This document shows positions 7,543 through 54,834 of a DNA stretch of 64,000 nucleotides, in pieces. The stretch is taken from positions 1 through 64,000 of the IMG/VR virus record IMGVR_UViG_3300049617_000144. One strand, 5' to 3'. This stretch comes from a virus. How positions within the stretch are numbered: position 1 is the stretch's first letter; every line of letters starts with the position of its first letter. Under the pieces are notes generated by a model. The model saw only the letters and a program-made list of their open reading frames with translations, searched no databases and had not been told where the DNA came from. A program made the translations under genes and the position numbers.

Positions 7543-8052
7543 TCACAGGTTTTCGGAAGAATCGCAATGGGTGTCCTTGTCACTAATCACTATCCTGTCA
7601 TAATACTTTTTGCCCTCTTCCAGAGCTTCTTTTGTATACTTTTTCAAATGCGAAGGAGATTTGAACTCTTCTGATGGCTTTTCAAGAGGCATCCCCTTCG
7701 CCAAATCATGAGTGATTCCATGCCATTTACAGTCAAGACACTGCACATCGTTTTCATCCTTGAAGGCTTCTGGATTCTCTGTACTAATCACATAGCCAAT
7801 ATAAGTGGAAGAATATCGTTTAGAGCCGCATTGCGGACAACAAACATGGTCTACATGATAATAACGCTCCTTGCACTCTCGGGCATGTTTGATCTTTGGC
7901 AGATAGATATCCTGGTCCAAGCCTTGTTCTTTATACATCTCGGCCAACTGCTCATCCGTCAATGGCCTGTTTACGGGTACGTAAGGAACATAGAAATAAC
8001 CTGTTTCTGGCATTTGTGTTGTTTTGGTCCATTTAATCTCGTTATCTGACAT
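7543..8052 (-). CDS. Zinc-ribbon protein of unknown function, 169 aa
   Basis: Begins MSDNEIKWTKTTQMPETGYF with a YVPYVPVNRPL stretch. Two cysteine pairs (CCPQCGSKRY and CLDCKWHG), about 30 residues apart, form a likely zinc ribbon. The C-terminus is charged and helical. GGAG precedes the start, which overlaps the stop of a 33-aa membrane ORF. The function is not recognised. Confidence 0.6.
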   Translation of the reverse strand: MSDNEIKWTKTTQMPETGYFYVPYVPVNRPLTDEQLAEMYKEQGLDQDIYLPKIKHARECKERYYHVDHVCCPQCGSKRYSSTYIGYVISTENPEAFKDENDVQCLDCKWHGITHDLAKGMPLEKPSEEFKSPSHLKKYTKEALEEGKKYYDRIVISDKDTHCDSSENL

Positions 8053-8143
8053 GATTAACTCCAGGAAAAAACCAAATGATAATCATGAAATAAAGAAAGA
8101 AAGTCACAATAAGTACAAAACAAAGATCATTCTTCTGTTCCAT
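8042..8143 (-). CDS. Small single-helix membrane protein, 33 aa
   Basis: ATG at 8143 opens MEQKNDLCFVLIVTFF with a continuous hydrophobic helix to about residue 28 (FMIIIWFFPG), ending VNHVR. It overlaps the next gene's start by 11 bases, as expected in this compact operon. The ribosome site (GGA 11 bases upstream) is weak. A single-pass membrane peptide is likely. Confidence 0.45.
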   Translation of the reverse strand: MEQKNDLCFVLIVTFFLYFMIIIWFFPGVNHVR

Positions 8144-8192
8144 CGCAATTATTCCATAATTCGTCTCCAAAGTCTCCGTAGTCTATCTCCAT
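8127..8192 (-). CDS. Tiny acidic ORF, 21 aa
   Basis: ATG at 8192 opens MEIDYGDFGDELWNNCDGTEE. AAGG lies eight bases upstream. It overlaps the end of the GIY-YIG ORF and the start of the 33-aa membrane ORF. It could be a real leader peptide or a chance frame. Confidence 0.25.
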   Translation of the reverse strand: MEIDYGDFGDELWNNCDGTEE

Positions 8193-8674
8193 TCGAGGTG
8201 CCTTACGTGTCTAGCTCGTATCGACCAATGATTGCCGAAATTTGGATTGTTTTCACCACGCACTTTTTCGCTACGTAGATGTTTGTCTTCAGAGGACATA
8301 TTGGCAAAACGATTCTTTAATGTCTCAGATATTTTTTTGATTATCTCTTTCTTTTTTGGATTACTTGTAAGATTGTCACCACCACTAGCTTGCCTGCCTA
8401 TGTTGTAACCTATTTGAAAAATAAATGCTCTTGTGTGATCGAGCCAATATTGCTCACGTTCGAGCAACATGCTAACATTAACTTCTTCTACAATTTCAAA
8501 CACAAAGCACTTCTCGCCAAAATAATTCCAAGCTCTTTGTAGATGAACATTATGATGCACGCCGCCACACAAATCAGTGGTATGTTTCTTCCACCGCTTA
8601 CAACAGTCCTTAGAACTTCCTATGTAGAACTTGTTGTTAGAGGTATTTATAATCTTATACACACCAGAAATCAT
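8183..8674 (-). CDS. GIY-YIG homing endonuclease with NUMOD3
   Basis: From the internal ATG at 8674: SGVYKIINTSNNKFYIGSS is the GIY-YIG core (GVY / YIG), with the catalytic Arg in KRWKKHT and Glu in LEREQYWLD. The NUMOD3 motif GENNPNFGNHWS appears near residue 145, then the protein ends abruptly, so it may have lost further DNA-binding repeats. It sits directly downstream of thyA, the gene that in T4 hosts the I-TevI intron. It is likely a free-standing homing endonuclease. Confidence 0.85.
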   Translation of the reverse strand: MISGVYKIINTSNNKFYIGSSKDCCKRWKKHTTDLCGGVHHNVHLQRAWNYFGEKCFVFEIVEEVNVSMLLEREQYWLDHTRAFIFQIGYNIGRQASGGDNLTSNPKKKEIIKKISETLKNRFANMSSEDKHLRSEKVRGENNPNFGNHWSIRARHVRHLEWR

Positions 8675-8684
8675 AGTCGCTCCA

Positions 8685-9623
8685 CTAAACAGCAACTGGT
8701 ATTTTTATGATTGGCCCAGGATTGTAACCAATTAACTCAAAGTCATCAAGTTTATATGCGGTAATGTCATCAGCCTTATGTAAATTCAATGTTGGAGAAT
8801 CAATAATTGAAGCATTGAGATATTTTTCAGTAGCTTCCAACTGATCTTCATAAATGTGACAATCTCCTCCACACCATACAAATTCATAAGCTTTGTAGCC
8901 GGTTTGTTGTGCTAACATCATGGTGAACGCAGAATAAAACTGCACGTTTGCTGGCACTCCAACCATCATATCGCATGAGCGTTGATTTAACAGCCCCGTC
9001 ATTCTGCCTTCATCATCAATAAATACTTGATAAGCATAATGACAAGGTGGCAGCTTTTGCTTGTGTAAATCTTGTGGATTCCATAAAGAAAACATGATGC
9101 GACGACAAGAAGGATCTTCTTTGATTCGCTTGATGATATAAGCAAGTTGGTCAAAGCCATTAAATCCATATTGGTCTTGGAAAGATACTTCTGGTTCTTC
9201 TCCAAGCATAGCTCGACACATATTTTTGGATGGCTCAGGGATGCCACCAGCACCATCACCGTAATTGCCGCCAAAGTAACGAAGCTGAAACCCGTAGACA
9301 GGGCCGAATGAACCTTCAACGAATCCGTGCTTTTTCTCGAACTCAGCATCTACCCAGGGAGTCCAGATATTGGCTCCCAGCTTTTGAAGGTCTTTGTTAT
9401 TGGTTGATCCCGATAGGAACCAAAGAAGTTCGGCGAAAATGGAACGGGGCCAGACCTTTCGCCTGGTCACAATGGGGAAATACTCATCGATGCGATAGCG
9501 ACTCATGATGCCCATGATCGCCCTGGTCTTGATCCCCGTTCTCTTGTTTGATTTTGCAACACCCTGCTCTAAGATCATCTTAAGAGCATTGTCGTAATCC
9601 TGCATTGTGTAACGACTCATCAT
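8685..9623 (-). CDS. thyA: Thymidylate synthase ThyA
   Basis: ATG at 9623 is preceded by AAGGAGGC; the upstream frame is an overrun. The 312-residue protein has the ThyA landmarks: RAIMGIMSRYRID, FAELLWFLSGSTN, the catalytic Cys194 in LPPCHYAYQV, QRSCDMMVGVPANV, and GGDCHIYEDQ. It methylates dUMP to dTMP with methylene-tetrahydrofolate, and DHFR is encoded nearby. The coding region overlaps the upstream zinc-protein gene by about 44 bases. Confidence 0.96.
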   Translation of the reverse strand: MMSRYTMQDYDNALKMILEQGVAKSNKRTGIKTRAIMGIMSRYRIDEYFPIVTRRKVWPRSIFAELLWFLSGSTNNKDLQKLGANIWTPWVDAEFEKKHGFVEGSFGPVYGFQLRYFGGNYGDGAGGIPEPSKNMCRAMLGEEPEVSFQDQYGFNGFDQLAYIIKRIKEDPSCRRIMFSLWNPQDLHKQKLPPCHYAYQVFIDDEGRMTGLLNQRSCDMMVGVPANVQFYSAFTMMLAQQTGYKAYEFVWCGGDCHIYEDQLEATEKYLNASIIDSPTLNLHKADDITAYKLDDFELIGYNPGPIIKIPVAV

Positions 9624-15490: not shown

Positions 15491-15600
15491 ACCGTTCCTT
15501 CAAACTTGGAAAAACTTACCCAAGCAAAAAAGGTTTGACGAAACCAACCCACATCCTGCCGTTATACGCAGAATGCTCTTAATGGATCGATCCGTACTGG
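15491..15600 (-). ncRNA. Candidate omega-RNA of TnpB copy 1
   Basis: The last codons of tnpB and the 3' sequence are conserved with copy 3: CTGCGTATAACGGCAGG, a GGGTTGGTTTCGTCAAACC-type hairpin, then CTTGGGTAAGTTTTTCCAAG (stem CTTGG/CCAAG) and GGAACGGT. In this family the guide is the flank directly after the right end; here it would start AACAAAGGGGGATTGA. The 5' limit is a guess. Confidence 0.6.
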
Positions 15601-16734
15601 CCTTGCGGCAAGGCTCTTATCAAGTCGGCTGAGAAACTCAGCGTTCCCGATTACTTTTCTCCCGATGTTCGCTGATCCATTGCAGTCAGCATTGATGATA
15701 CGACCGCCACTACTCCGGTAGCGTCCACGACCCATGCGAGTACCAGAAAACTTATGCTTTACTCCAGCGACATACTCAGGCAAAGGATCACGATCAAAGA
15801 AACTGGCTTTGCTGGTATACGCTTCCTCCGTGAAAACAACGTCAAGTCCAGCCAATGCTGCCTTGTACTTAACCTTCTCCAAGAGTCGGTAGAACGGAAC
15901 ATTCTGGAAGTCAGTCCTCGTCCTCCTGTCCAGTTTCTTCATGCCTTGCTTCCAGCCATCATTCTTACCAATGATGATCGTGCCAATGCCATGTTTGACA
16001 CAATGAGCCACAATGAACTTGCTAACATGGTGGAAGTAGTTTTCCAGACGGAAGTAGCGTTTCTCGCTTTCACGCTTGGTCTTGAACCTGTTGAAATGCT
16101 TGTTGATGCTCTTGCAAATGCGACCGTTGACCAGTATGGGAGTCGTCTGATCGGAAGTTATCGCAGCAAGATTGTTCAAGCCAATGTCAATACAGGCAAC
16201 ACCTTTTGCCGTGGTTTTATGTGGGACGTTCTGTTCGTATTGCACGTCCACAATGAAGCCGAATCGCTTGGGTGTAATGACTACTTGCTTGTAGTCTCGG
16301 TTACTTTGAATGCCGAAGCAGTTGTTACTCGGCGTGATGGTTGTGAGTTTCTGGTTCTTCTTGGATTGTCCTCCTTTGATGGTTTCGTTGTAGAAGATAA
16401 CTTGAGCCAATTTGTCCTTGTAGTAGGGAGGCATAGGCATTTTGACAAACTTGCTTGGGTCTTTCTTCCATGCGTTGAGTGCCTTCTTGAAGTTCGTCCA
16501 ATCGGTCAAGCACTTACGGACGGTTTGCTTGGCGGTCTTTGTGTTGTGCAGATTGCGGAAACAGTCCTCGTTCTTGACGGCAGAAATGAGCATGTTGATG
16601 TTGGGTAGCATCGTACCACCGAACCATGCTTTTCGCATGAGGAAGTTACATTGGTTGTACAATTCCTTGCTCATTTTGCAGAGTCGGACGATTTCGTGTG
16701 TTCCGTGTATTTGGTGTCGCTCAACGAGTAGCAT
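15562..16734 (-). CDS. tnpB: TnpB RNA-guided nuclease, copy 1
   Basis: A 390-residue OrfB/TnpB. The RuvC-I Asp lies in ACIDIGLNNLAAITS; the RuvC-II region is GTIIIGKNDGWKQ with the acidic residue shifted to FTEEAYTSKASF; RuvC-III is INADCNGSANIGRK. The usual CxxC zinc knuckle is absent. The N-terminus MLLVERHQIHGT is identical in type to copies 2 and 3. TnpB proteins cut DNA next to a short flanking motif with an omega-RNA made from the element's 3' end. Antisense long ORFs here are shadows. Confidence 0.9.
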   Translation of the reverse strand: MLLVERHQIHGTHEIVRLCKMSKELYNQCNFLMRKAWFGGTMLPNINMLISAVKNEDCFRNLHNTKTAKQTVRKCLTDWTNFKKALNAWKKDPSKFVKMPMPPYYKDKLAQVIFYNETIKGGQSKKNQKLTTITPSNNCFGIQSNRDYKQVVITPKRFGFIVDVQYEQNVPHKTTAKGVACIDIGLNNLAAITSDQTTPILVNGRICKSINKHFNRFKTKRESEKRYFRLENYFHHVSKFIVAHCVKHGIGTIIIGKNDGWKQGMKKLDRRTRTDFQNVPFYRLLEKVKYKAALAGLDVVFTEEAYTSKASFFDRDPLPEYVAGVKHKFSGTRMGRGRYRSSGGRIINADCNGSANIGRKVIGNAEFLSRLDKSLAARPVRIDPLRAFCV

Positions 16735-30013: not shown

Positions 30014-31174
30014 ATGCTACTCGTTGAGCGACACCAAATACACGGAACTCCTGAAATTGTCCGACTCTGCACACTCAGCAAGGAACTGTACAACAAGTGC
30101 AACTTCCTGATGAGGAGAGCATGGTTCGGCAGTACAATGCTACCCAACATCAACACCCTCATCGCTGCTGTCAAAACCGAGGACTGCTTTCGTAACCTGC
30201 ACAACACCAAGACGGCAAAGCAAACTATCCGTAAGTGTTTGACTGATTGGACGAATTTCAAGAAGGCACTCAATGCCTACAAGAAAGACCCGAGCAAGTT
30301 CCTTCGGTGTCCCAAACCGCCGTACTACAAAGACAAACTGGCTCAGGTCATCTTCTACAACGAAACCATCAAGGGAGGACAATCCAAGAAGAACCAGAAA
30401 CTCATGACCATCACGCCGAGTAACAACTGCTTCGGCATCAAAAGCGTCAGAGACTACAAGCAAGTGGTCATCACGCCCAAGACTTTTGGCTTTGTGGTGG
30501 ACGTACAGTACGAGCGTGAAATCAAGAAAGAGAAAGTCAGCAAAGACAACGTATGTTGTATCGACATTGGCGTAAATAATTTGGCTACGATAACCTCCGG
30601 TCAACTCGGTCATCCGATATTGGTCAACGGTCGTATCCTCAAGAGCGTCAACAGGTTGTACAACAAGTACCCCAACAAGAGGACGAGCAGGAAGCGATAC
30701 TTCCAGATTGAAAACTACTTCCACCATGCCAGCAAGTTCATCGTGGACCTGTGTGTCAAGCACGGCATCGGTTGCATCATCGTGGGCAAGAACGATGGCT
30801 GGAAACAAGAAGTCAAGATGCAGAAGGAACAGAAGCAAAACTTCCAGTACATTCCATTCTGGCGGTTCATTGAGAAAGTCAAGTACAAGGCAACATTGGC
30901 TGGTATCGTCGTAGACTTCACCGAAGAGGCATATACCAGCAAGGCGAGTTTTCTTGACCATGACGAACTGCCTGTTTGGGATGCCAAGCCGCCACACTTG
31001 TCGGGTAAGAGGATCAAGGGAATATACAAGACATTCCGCCCTATTCATGCTGACGTGAATGGAAGCCTGAACATCGGGCGAAAAGTAATCGGGGATAAAG
31101 TCTACGAGACTTTCCCTGATAGGAGCATTGCCGCAATGCCAGTACGAGTAAAGTTTTCAGCGTATAACGGCTGA
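30014..31174 (+). CDS. tnpB: TnpB RNA-guided nuclease, copy 2
   Basis: A 386-residue protein, very close to copy 3. RuvC motifs: CCIDIGVNNLATITS, IIVGKNDGWKQ with FTEEAYTSKASFLD, and IHADVNGSLNIGRK. The zinc knuckle is missing as in copy 1. The C-terminus differs (VRVKFSAYNG) from the INPLKAFCV of copy 3, owing to an altered 3' end, so its omega-RNA scaffold also differs. TATATAAGG precedes the ATG. Confidence 0.9.
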   Translation: MLLVERHQIHGTPEIVRLCTLSKELYNKCNFLMRRAWFGSTMLPNINTLIAAVKTEDCFRNLHNTKTAKQTIRKCLTDWTNFKKALNAYKKDPSKFLRCPKPPYYKDKLAQVIFYNETIKGGQSKKNQKLMTITPSNNCFGIKSVRDYKQVVITPKTFGFVVDVQYEREIKKEKVSKDNVCCIDIGVNNLATITSGQLGHPILVNGRILKSVNRLYNKYPNKRTSRKRYFQIENYFHHASKFIVDLCVKHGIGCIIVGKNDGWKQEVKMQKEQKQNFQYIPFWRFIEKVKYKATLAGIVVDFTEEAYTSKASFLDHDELPVWDAKPPHLSGKRIKGIYKTFRPIHADVNGSLNIGRKVIGDKVYETFPDRSIAAMPVRVKFSAYNG

Positions 31175-41763: not shown

Positions 41764-42927
41764 ATGCTACTCGTTGAAAGACACTTGATCGACGGAACAC
41801 CCGAAATCATCCGACTCTGCACCCAAAGCAAGGAACTGTACAATAAGTGCAATTTCCTCATGCGGAAAGCATGGTTCGGCGGCGAGAAGTTACCCGACAT
41901 CAACACGCTCATCGCCGCCGTCAAGAACGAGGACTGCTTCAAGAACCTACACAACACGAAGACAGCAAAGCAAACCATCCGCAAGTGCTTGACCGACTGG
42001 ACGAATTTCAAGAAAGCACTCAATGCTTACAAGAAAGACTCAAGCAAGTTCCTAAGATGTCCTAAACCACCGTACTACAAAGACAAACTAGCTCAAGTCA
42101 TTTTCTACAACGAAACCATTAAAGGAGGACAATCCAAGAAGAACCAGAAACGCATGACCATTACGCCGAGCAACAACTGCTTCGGCATCCAAAGCATCAG
42201 AGACTACAAGCAAGTGGTCATCACGCCCAAGACCTTCGGTTTTGTAGTGGATGTACAGTACGAGCGTGAAATCAAGAAAGAAAAAGTCAGCAAAGATAAC
42301 GTGTGTTGTATCGACATTGGCGTAAGTAACTTGGCTACGATAACTTCAAATCAACTGGCTGAACCCATATTGGTTAATGGTCGTATCCTCAAGAGCATCA
42401 ACAGGTTATACAACAAGCACCCCAACAAAAGAACGAGTAGGAAACGGTATTTTCAAATTGAAAACTACTTCCATCATGCCAGCAAGTTCATTATTGACTT
42501 GTGCGTGAAGCATGGGATTGGTCGGATCATTATCGGCAAGAATGATGGTTGGAAGCAGGAAGTCAAGATGCGTAAGGAGCCGAAACAGAACTTCCAGTAC
42601 ATTCCTTTCTTTAGGTTTATCGAGAAGATCAAGTACAAGGCGATACTGGCTGGTATCGTTGTGGACTTCACGGAAGAGGCATATACCAGCAAGGCGAGTT
42701 TTCTTGATCGTGATGAACTGCCTGTTTGGGATGCAAAACCGCCGCACTTGTCGGGTACTAGAAACAAGGGGATGTACAAGACATTCCGACCCATTCATGC
42801 TGATGTGAATGGAAGCCTGAATATCGGGCGAAAAGTAATCGGGGATAAAGTCTACGAGATTTTCCCTGATAGGAGCATTGCCGCAATGCCAGTACGGATC
42901 AATCCATTGAAGGCTTTCTGCGTATAA
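41764..42927 (+). CDS. tnpB: TnpB RNA-guided nuclease, copy 3
   Basis: A 387-residue protein, closest to copy 2. Motifs: CCIDIGVSNLATITS, IIIGKNDGWKQ, FTEEAYTSKASFLD, IHADVNGSLNIGRK, ending INPLKAFCV. All three copies keep the RuvC acids, so all may be active. Promoter-like GCTATATAAAG precedes the ATG. Confidence 0.9.
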   Translation: MLLVERHLIDGTPEIIRLCTQSKELYNKCNFLMRKAWFGGEKLPDINTLIAAVKNEDCFKNLHNTKTAKQTIRKCLTDWTNFKKALNAYKKDSSKFLRCPKPPYYKDKLAQVIFYNETIKGGQSKKNQKRMTITPSNNCFGIQSIRDYKQVVITPKTFGFVVDVQYEREIKKEKVSKDNVCCIDIGVSNLATITSNQLAEPILVNGRILKSINRLYNKHPNKRTSRKRYFQIENYFHHASKFIIDLCVKHGIGRIIIGKNDGWKQEVKMRKEPKQNFQYIPFFRFIEKIKYKAILAGIVVDFTEEAYTSKASFLDRDELPVWDAKPPHLSGTRNKGMYKTFRPIHADVNGSLNIGRKVIGDKVYEIFPDRSIAAMPVRINPLKAFCV

Positions 42928-47970: not shown

Positions 47971-48127
47971 GTGCCTCTGGTGACACTTGCTAAAGGCTAA
48001 CCCTTCTGGATTAGAAGGAGACGAAGGTGGGATTTGAACCCACGAAACACTCGGCTAGAGCGATGTGCGTGGTTAGCAGCCACGCTCCTTAGACCAGACT
48101 CGGACACTTCGTCGTCACCAGAGGCAC
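47971..48127. repeat. 14-base inverted repeat enclosing the tRNA gene
   Basis: GTGCCTCTGGTGAC (47,971-47,984) and GTCACCAGAGGCAC (48,114-48,127) are perfect inverted repeats around the tRNA-Ser gene, the right arm touching the 5' end of the tRNA. It may be a processing stem or the ends of a small mobile cassette. Confidence 0.75.
48020..48113 (-). tRNA. tRNA-Ser (GCT anticodon)
   Basis: On the minus strand GACGAAG pairs with CTTCGTC (acceptor stem). The D arm includes TCCGAGTCTGGTCTAAGGA, the anticodon arm is CGTGG-CTGCTAA-CCACG with anticodon GCT, a long variable arm is typical of serine tRNAs, and the T arm is GTGGG-TTCAAAT-CCCAC. CCA is not encoded. The coding strand is opposite to the RHH gene. 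Confidence 0.92.
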
Positions 48128-52395: not shown

Positions 52396-52911
52396 ATGAT
52401 ATTTGTCGAAGAAGATGATAACCGTTTTTACATCAAAGAATCAACATTGCCCAATGCTGGCTTGGGATGTTTTGCCAAAATACTAATTCCAAAAGGCGAT
52501 TGGCTGGAAATCATCGGTGTGTACGTCAAAACTGGCGGGATTGCCGACAAATGCACGCATTACGCCAAACGGTACAAATTCGCAGGTTCTCCCAAGATGG
52601 ATGCCAAAATAGTTCCAATGGGCTTTGGCGGCATGGTTAATCACAGCAGTGACTCTAAAGTTCAGAATGTCGTCCTTGAATATTGTGCCGGACTTAGTAA
52701 AAGGAGTAGTCATTCCGGCCAGGTTATCTACCGGGCCTTGCGGGACATCCAACCCGACGAGGAGCTAATAGGCAATTATGGCGATGTTATAGGAGCCGAA
52801 GTGGATCGCATGGCGAAGAACACAAGCTTCTTTTTGACGGAACTTGAGGACTGGCAAAAGTTTGTGTCTCTGAACCCCTATAATTTGCAAGATTTGATCG
52901 ACAAGTTGTAA
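52396..52911 (+). CDS. SET-domain protein
   Basis: A 171-residue protein. SET motifs: STLPNAGLGCFAKILIPKGDWL (SAM site GxG), MVNHSSDSKVQNVVLE (NHS-x-x-x-N), and RDIQPDEELIGNYGDV (GEEL-x-x-Y-G). SET proteins methylate lysines in proteins. Bacteria rarely use them and phages even less. It could target host or virion proteins. Starts one base after the upstream stop. Confidence 0.75.
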   Translation: MIFVEEDDNRFYIKESTLPNAGLGCFAKILIPKGDWLEIIGVYVKTGGIADKCTHYAKRYKFAGSPKMDAKIVPMGFGGMVNHSSDSKVQNVVLEYCAGLSKRSSHSGQVIYRALRDIQPDEELIGNYGDVIGAEVDRMAKNTSFFLTELEDWQKFVSLNPYNLQDLIDKL

Positions 52912-53006
52912 ATCACAACTCATTGACTGGCAATGCGTTAAAAAATTATTGGAAAAAATTTCAAAAAAGGCTGGACACTTTCGCCACTCGACTGTAAATT
53001 ACTGGA

Positions 53007-53920
53007 GTGAGATGAATGAACGGCAGCAACGGCTGCAAGCGATCTTTGAAAACTTAGAGAGTCACTTTGAGAGTCCAGGTGGTGACCGAAAGGACACCAC
53101 ACATAACTAAGTTCGCAACAAAACTGAGGTGCTAGCCTCAGGTACAAAATGGTAATCTTGCGAGAAAAACCAAGGGAAGCGGTGATACAGCCGCTTACGG
53201 CGAGCAATAAAGTCAGGTGCAAACACCTGATTGGAAGGTTTACCGGAAGGTTGAGACGGGCATCGGCATTAAGATGAGCCGCCCATATAAACTGGAAGAG
53301 TCGAGAGAGTCAACCAGGACAAATGGTAGCTAAAAGGCCACTTGAATCGTCAGGCACGCAGACCTGACGAAGATTGGTGCAATCTTAATGGCGTCTTGGG
53401 TTAAGACATAGAAGTAGCAATCTCTATGGCATTCCCATTTCCCTCCCCACAAGGGAGGAACATCCTGGCGAGGATGGAATGAAGACGTTGAGCCTGGTTC
53501 ACGCCTAGAAACGACGTTACCTTACACGACAGGGACAAGGAAATCAGTAGTCAAGATCACCCGCAAATGACAATTAGGATTCACAAGGTAATTATTGGCA
53601 GGGGGCTTCTGGGTAATCGCTTGGAGCAATCTAGGCGATGAAAGAAGTACTGACAAATATTACGTTGAGAGGAATAAGCGTCGTGAGCGGAATGAGAAAC
53701 AACTGATTGTCACGCCGACTGGTTAATCTGGTGGCAACACCCAGCAGTAAGCCCAAAAAGGCTAAAGGTACACGACTCCAGTTGGAAAGTTGCAAAAAGA
53801 ATGACGGACTCGCTGAGCCAGTATATCGTACCTCTACGCAAGCAAGTGCGGTTCTGGTAAAAAAAGTGTGCTGTAAAACCCCGAACAGCGGAACTAACGT
53901 TCTGCGTTCGGGGTTTTCTT
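53007..53920 (+). ncRNA. Large ornate non-coding RNA candidate, ~914 nt
   Basis: A gene-free stretch with a promoter (TGGACA 52,972-52,977, 17-base spacer, TAAATT 52,995-53,000) and a strong terminator (AAAACCCCGAA/TTCGGGGTTTT, 53,875-53,917). Between them lie at least fourteen local hairpins. They include GGTGGTG/CACCAC with inner CC-GAAA-GG (53,078-53,100), CTGAGG/CCTCAG (53,124-53,141), TCAGGTG/CACCTGA (53,213-53,230), TCGTCAGG/CCTGACGA (53,347-53,370), adjacent AGATTG/CAATCT, CATCC/GGATG (53,461-53,476), and CTGGTG-GCAA-CACCAG-type near 53,728-53,744. Two loops are GNRA. Size fits GOLLD or ROOL; class not proven. Confidence 0.75.
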
Positions 53921-53925
53921 TTCAT

Positions 53926-54834
53926 TCACGCTTTCATATCGTCTTGCGACAAAAACGAAAAATACTGCACATGATTGTACCTTAGATCTATTTCGCAGTA
54001 TTTGTCGTTTTTGTTGAAATAATTTGCCCAGAGATTTTCTAATTTCCAAGCCTCACAAAGCTTGCCGCTATCGTCATAAAGCCTGATGAGTCCGGTAGCG
54101 GTAGTCTCCTCTTTGGCCGAGTTGATTAGCTTCAAGAATGCTTCCGAGTGTGGAAGATCAGAATTGTTGATGAACATTTTCATCGTCTGCCATTTGTACT
54201 TGCCAGCCACGAATAATTTTCCGTGCAGGAAATCAATTTCAGTTTCATCTATGTCAACTCTTGGCCGTCGTGGAATTTCCACATCAATCTCTTCCTTAGC
54301 CCCTTCTAGCAGGAATCGCCATTTGTATTTGCAAGGTTCAAGGAAGAACTGGCGGGAAGCCACTTGGTATTCCATTACTATTTCCTGCAACACCTCTTCC
54401 GAAGAAGCCATGTCAAAATCCAACTCCCTGCTAGCCAATTTCAAGCCGCTGAATGTGTATGCATAGAGTCCTTTCCCGCAACCATCCCACACTGTCAATT
54501 TAATAGTTTCATCAGGCCAGCGGCCATCTTCCATACTTTTTGCCCACAGTTCAATAGGCGAATCGCTACCTTGTTGTCCTTTATAGGCTTGTTCAGGGGC
54601 CTCTACCAATTCATAAGCCTTGATAAAAAGCTGCTTTTTTGCTAAATTTACATGAGCCGCCTTAATAACCCAATCTGGAATATTAGGCCCTTCCAAACTG
54701 AATCTGAACTTTCTAACAAAAATCATATTTTGACACCCTAGTTTCCCAAGACCCATTGGCCGCTCTGGAATTTCCAACGACGGCACAGGTTTCTGGACGG
54801 GCGTAGAGTATCCCCGTTCGCATTTTTCTCGCAT
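53926..54834 (-). CDS. Possible two-domain tail-tube-fold protein
   Basis: A 302-residue protein starting MREKCERGYSTPVQKPV with AAAGGATAATCT upstream. Two similar halves are visible: IKLTVWDGCGKGLYAYTF with IVMEYQV, and TGLIRLYDDSGKLCEAWKL with YCEIDLRYNHV. This strand-helix-strand pattern with a final beta strand resembles T4 gp19/gp54 tube-like folds. Function unproven. Its end lies near the big RNA terminator. Confidence 0.45.
   Translation of the reverse strand: MREKCERGYSTPVQKPVPSLEIPERPMGLGKLGCQNMIFVRKFRFSLEGPNIPDWVIKAAHVNLAKKQLFIKAYELVEAPEQAYKGQQGSDSPIELWAKSMEDGRWPDETIKLTVWDGCGKGLYAYTFSGLKLASRELDFDMASSEEVLQEIVMEYQVASRQFFLEPCKYKWRFLLEGAKEEIDVEIPRRPRVDIDETEIDFLHGKLFVAGKYKWQTMKMFINNSDLPHSEAFLKLINSAKEETTATGLIRLYDDSGKLCEAWKLENLWANYFNKNDKYCEIDLRYNHVQYFSFLSQDDMKA

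Follow-up and report, generated by a model that had tools for sequence, protein, structure and literature searches.

A large structured orphan RNA candidate between convergent genes of a huge phage

The window analysed here, 64,000 nucleotides of a viral record (IMGVR_UViG_3300049617_000144), contains a 0.9-kb stretch without a recognisable protein, which raises the question of what this stretch encodes. No open reading frame longer than 54 aa lies fully within 53007-53920 on the plus strand, and the frames of 92-94 aa that overlap its edges on either strand gave no significant match to a Pfam or PHROG family, in agreement with an earlier note, made from the sequence alone, that no ORF of typical phage type covers the stretch. 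The candidate RNA discussed below occupies 53003-53921 on the plus strand (the stretch originally singled out, 53007-53920, measures 914 nt) and sits between convergent genes, a SET-domain gene upstream (52396-52911, plus strand; PF00856) and a gene for a 302-aa protein on the minus strand (Table 1). The earlier note had placed the stretch between a SET-domain gene and a tail-like gene, the second assignment corresponding to a weak match to phrog_4542. The phage is T4-like and of a huge-phage lineage, encoding UvsX, a gp32-like SSB and a DnaB-like helicase, and its PrkA-like protein is 65% identical to the counterpart in LR756511.1 (595 kb). The sole tRNA gene of the window, a tRNA-Ser at 48017-48113, is ~5 kb away from the candidate RNA.

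Using dinucleotide shuffles as the null, the minimum free energy (MFE) of 53007-53920, terminator included, gave a z-score of -6.85, and without the terminator the values were -9.6 and -7.8 (12 shuffles each) and -6.2 (100 shuffles). The plus strand folds better than the minus strand, although the latter retains some stability of its own (z about -4 to -7). Ensemble diversity was low (z -2.6), 163 base pairs had a probability above 0.9 as compared to a maximum of 155 among 100 shuffles, and three GNRA tetraloops were present in the MFE structure where 0.56 +/- 0.77 were expected. Two other features that had drawn attention to the locus are ordinary. At least fourteen hairpins had previously been counted and the fold has 19, an unremarkable number since the shuffles have 16.9 +/- 2.3; likewise, the supposedly fair promoter at the start is present as a 9/12 match, but sites of that score numbered three in the region against 1.4 +/- 1.4 expected, which is chance level. 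The real evidence is therefore the stability, the defined long-range fold and the GNRA loops, and not the hairpin count or the promoter match. As a benchmark, a GOLLD RNA together with its 5' region (942 nt, LR745206.1) reached a z-score of -5.1 in the same run that gave -7.8 for the candidate RNA.

ORF-free gaps in the relatives W01, G003 and G001 and in G070 served as a comparison set, and those tested gaps that had comparable z-scores were tRNA arrays, short genes with terminators, and one gap that was stable on both strands. Structured gaps considered as similar RNAs in relatives were rejected as tRNA arrays, and G070 159647-160594, considered as a structured RNA gap, resolved to short genes with terminators. 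The gap with two stable strands is G003 7943-9060, whose z-scores of -6.6 and -7.2 are about equal.

Table 1. Features of the candidate RNA and its immediate surroundings (window coordinates; p, predicted pairing probability)
Feature	Position	Strand	Evidence
Candidate sigma-70-like promoter TGGACA-17-TAAATT	52972-53000	+	9/12 matches
Orphan structured RNA body	53003-53872	+	MFE z-scores from -6.2 to -9.6; ensemble diversity low; p>0.9 for 163 base pairs
Multi-branched core, closing helix GAGUCC 53071-53076 / GGACUC 53806-53811	53071-53811	+	p ~0.94
GAAA-tetraloop hairpin GUGGUGACC-GAAA-GGACACCAC	53079-53100	+	p 1.00
Hairpin CUGAGGU-GCUA-GCCUCAG	53124-53141	+	p 0.99
Two-helix arm with 9-bp hairpin AGUCAGGUG/CACCUGAUU	53198-53245	+	p 0.92-0.99
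Large branched domain with TCGTCAGG/CCTGACGA and GAGA tetraloop	53248-53506	+	predicted fold
Perfect local hairpin AAGAUUG-GUG-CAAUCUU	53370-53386	+	predicted fold; rival long-range helix
Long imperfect rod, GCAA tetraloop cap at 53626-53629	53542-53708	+	p 0.81-1.00; modelled as R1
3' arm, possible second GCAA hairpin (53734-53737)	53715-53785	+	predicted fold
Strong terminator (stem, then U-rich tail)	53875-53921	+	12-nt arms, 100% complementary; predicted fold
Gene for 302-aa protein, weakly tail-tube-like	53926-54834	-	phrog_4542, E 8.9e-4

The predicted fold is multi-branched, and its long-range helices with p>0.9 reach across more than 700 nt of the candidate RNA. Both GNRA loops proposed earlier, GAAA and GCAA, were recovered, the MFE structure adds a third (GAGA, 53303-53306), and a fourth (GCAA, 53734-53737) appears 1.6 kcal/mol above the MFE. 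Of two hairpins described as packed side by side, the TCGTCAGG/CCTGACGA helix is predicted at p 0.98, whereas the AAGATTG/CAATCTT hairpin gives way to a long-range helix, 53267-53275/53382-53390 (p 0.89), with less than 1 kcal/mol between them, and an alternative fold of this region is thus possible in the model. Palindromic kissing loops were sought in the unpaired stretches of the candidate RNA and none were found. At the 3' end, the strong terminator that had been described with an eleven-base stem was confirmed with perfect arms of 12 nt, AAAACCCCGAAC/GTTCGGGGTTTT (53875-53886/53906-53917), which extend to 18 bp in the predicted fold. The convergent gene for the 302-aa protein has its 3' end here as well and could be served by the terminator, which is therefore not by itself proof of transcription of the RNA.

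Size, density and phage setting had been taken to fit the giant-RNA classes GOLLD and ROOL, but the covariance models matched neither. Rfam scans of the region, at gathering thresholds as well as permissively at E up to 10, returned only noise, with no match to GOLLD, ROOL, OLE, HEARO or group II models. For GOLLD (RF02032), a covariance search of the whole record at E up to 10 and a permissive cmscan were both empty, while the same search detected GOLLD in the huge phages W02 and W03 (E 1.1e-83 and 4.5e-80; 287 and 275 bits). These GOLLD RNAs, at LR745206.1 420875-421280 and LR756502.1 434685-435091, both huge phages of ~640 kb, provide the negative result in our record with a working control and demonstrate that large RNAs do occur in such phages. 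The corresponding search for ROOL (RF03087, a 574-position model), likewise at E up to 10 over the record, gave no match and was run without a positive control. A weak GOLLD match in G027 (18 bits) was not confirmed by cmscan. Near the LR745206.1 GOLLD, a sub-threshold tmRNA-like match was observed (L280 462-553; 22.8 bits, cut-off 47).

The candidate RNA nevertheless resembles GOLLD in being large, ornate, phage-encoded and non-coding, and GOLLD is also present in huge phages; in contrast, the conserved GOLLD 3' domain is not matched. Phage GOLLD RNAs are often encoded near tRNA islands, and the one in W02 adjoins a tRNA, unlike the candidate RNA. Like ROOL, it is large, ornate and carried by a phage, and neither has a known function, but it differs in the lack of a match and in its length, ~0.9 kb against the 574 positions of the model. 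OLE and HEARO are similarly large structured bacterial RNAs; however, both were absent from the Rfam matches to the candidate RNA at E up to 10, and no nearby partner gene of either was identified. Many GOLLD members exceed 800 nt, a multimeric cage self-assembled by GOLLD and an RNA-only nanocage of ROOL have been reported, and the functions of both classes are unknown (PMC12286853).

Searches for homologues, which the earlier note had proposed in jumbo-phage and metagenome contigs, found no relative of the candidate RNA among phages, plasmids and related viral records. There was no blastn match in phages and plasmids at distant settings, and among ~125 related viral records only matches of 14 to 41 nt were obtained, none convincing; six of the short matches were judged by their open-frame context and the others were considered chance by length and E-value only. 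In exact-pattern scans, four viral and one genomic, each hit that was checked fell inside an open frame (minimum length 80 or 100 codons), a follow-up with nhmmer was empty, and the single-sequence covariance models R1 and R2, run over 50 records, matched only the window itself. The collections searched are without metagenome contigs and, as they state themselves, may omit the closest relatives of the genome that the window belongs to, hence this absence of homologues is not proof.

Three syntenic relatives (LR756511.1, G003, and G070) have the SET gene and UvsW within ~75 bp of each other or overlapping, so that the candidate RNA and the 302-aa gene form a lineage-specific block of ~2 kb. The block may have been gained here or lost elsewhere, as the three relatives fit either, and on gene order the 302-aa gene would be tied to the candidate RNA by association only. 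Judging from the sequence, a short ORF appears to lie in the SET-UvsW gap of G070 and LR756511.1. The UvsW-like helicase of our phage (54927-57401, minus strand) carries an intein-like LAGLIDADG insert and measures 824 aa as compared to ~470 aa in the three relatives. Mobile genes are abundant in the phage and include this intein, HNH and GIY-YIG genes, and three TnpB-like (OrfB_IS605 / Cas12f1-like) genes at 15562-16734 (minus strand), 30014-31174 and 41764-42927 (both plus strand). In LR756511.1, tRNA-like genes at 289.2-291.4 kb (minus strand; locus L140) contain a repeated insert, ACTTGGAYRCGAAAGYRTCCCC...TACAAAC, and this pattern has four exact matches in L140 and none in the other loci compared.

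Several explanations other than a stand-alone RNA have to be weighed. Decayed coding DNA, or intergenic DNA, that merely happens to be stable would agree with the lack of homologues found, the chance-level promoter and the partial stability of the minus strand, but z-scores of -6 to -9.6, low ensemble diversity, high-probability pairs beyond all 100 shuffles and edge ORFs without a protein-family signal speak against it, and we regard it as unlikely. Rather improbable, too, is a very divergent GOLLD or ROOL RNA beyond recognition by the Rfam models: the size range and phage setting are the same and GOLLD is found in other huge phages, yet the dedicated and permissive searches described above were empty (for ROOL with no positive control), the conserved GOLLD 3' domain, present in W02 and W03, is absent here, and the nearest tRNA is ~5 kb off.

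The lineage-specific insertion, compared with a near-empty site in three relatives, and the richness in mobile genes could also indicate a self-splicing or mobile RNA element (a group I or II intron, a circularly permuted intron or an IStron) inserted between genes. However, group I, group II and domain V had no Rfam match in the region even at E up to 10, no gene is interrupted, as the stretch lies between the SET gene and the convergent 302-aa gene, and it ends in a terminator, which leaves this explanation quite improbable. Less credible still is a guide or scaffold RNA of a mobile nuclease (a TnpB omega-RNA or the HEARO/IscB type); three TnpB genes do lie within the window, but none is adjacent, the nearest ending at 42927, an nhmmer search over the whole record revealed no copy of the candidate RNA near the TnpB genes, and HEARO was unmatched.

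The analysis shows the unusual stability and definition of the predicted fold, the lack of a recognisable protein and the lineage-specific presence. There is good support for a large structured non-coding RNA at this locus of a huge phage, and it is likely a real, unusually structured orphan RNA. The explanation we find probable is that the phage encodes a non-coding RNA that stands alone, measures ~0.87-0.92 kb, folds into a defined multi-branched structure, is terminator-ended and lineage-restricted, and works in a GOLLD/ROOL-like manner. In favour of this explanation are a z-score beyond the GOLLD benchmark, the long-range helices, the GNRA enrichment, the position between convergent genes and the terminator at its end, while the single sequence, the chance-level promoter, the terminator shared with the convergent gene and the partly stable minus strand count against it. 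Such an RNA would have been acquired, or kept, in one huge-phage branch only, between SET and UvsW, and would be transcribed from its own candidate promoter up to the strong stem terminator. The RNA itself would be the product, most likely working as GOLLD and ROOL do, and may form a compact, possibly multimeric scaffold made during infection, through a presumed assembly or partner.

A new RNA class, resting on one sequence, is plausible, whereas the more specific proposal of a new giant phage RNA class, unrelated to GOLLD and ROOL and forming its own RNA-only assembly, is possible but doubtful. Cage formation or a defence role of the candidate RNA, both raised earlier, is speculation. So far, few giant, ornate RNAs have been described in phages. 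If true, a third, unrelated giant RNA in a huge phage would suggest that such RNAs have been invented more than once by phages, and it would be a fresh object for asking what these RNAs do; with GOLLD in two other huge phages, a comparison among huge phages becomes possible.
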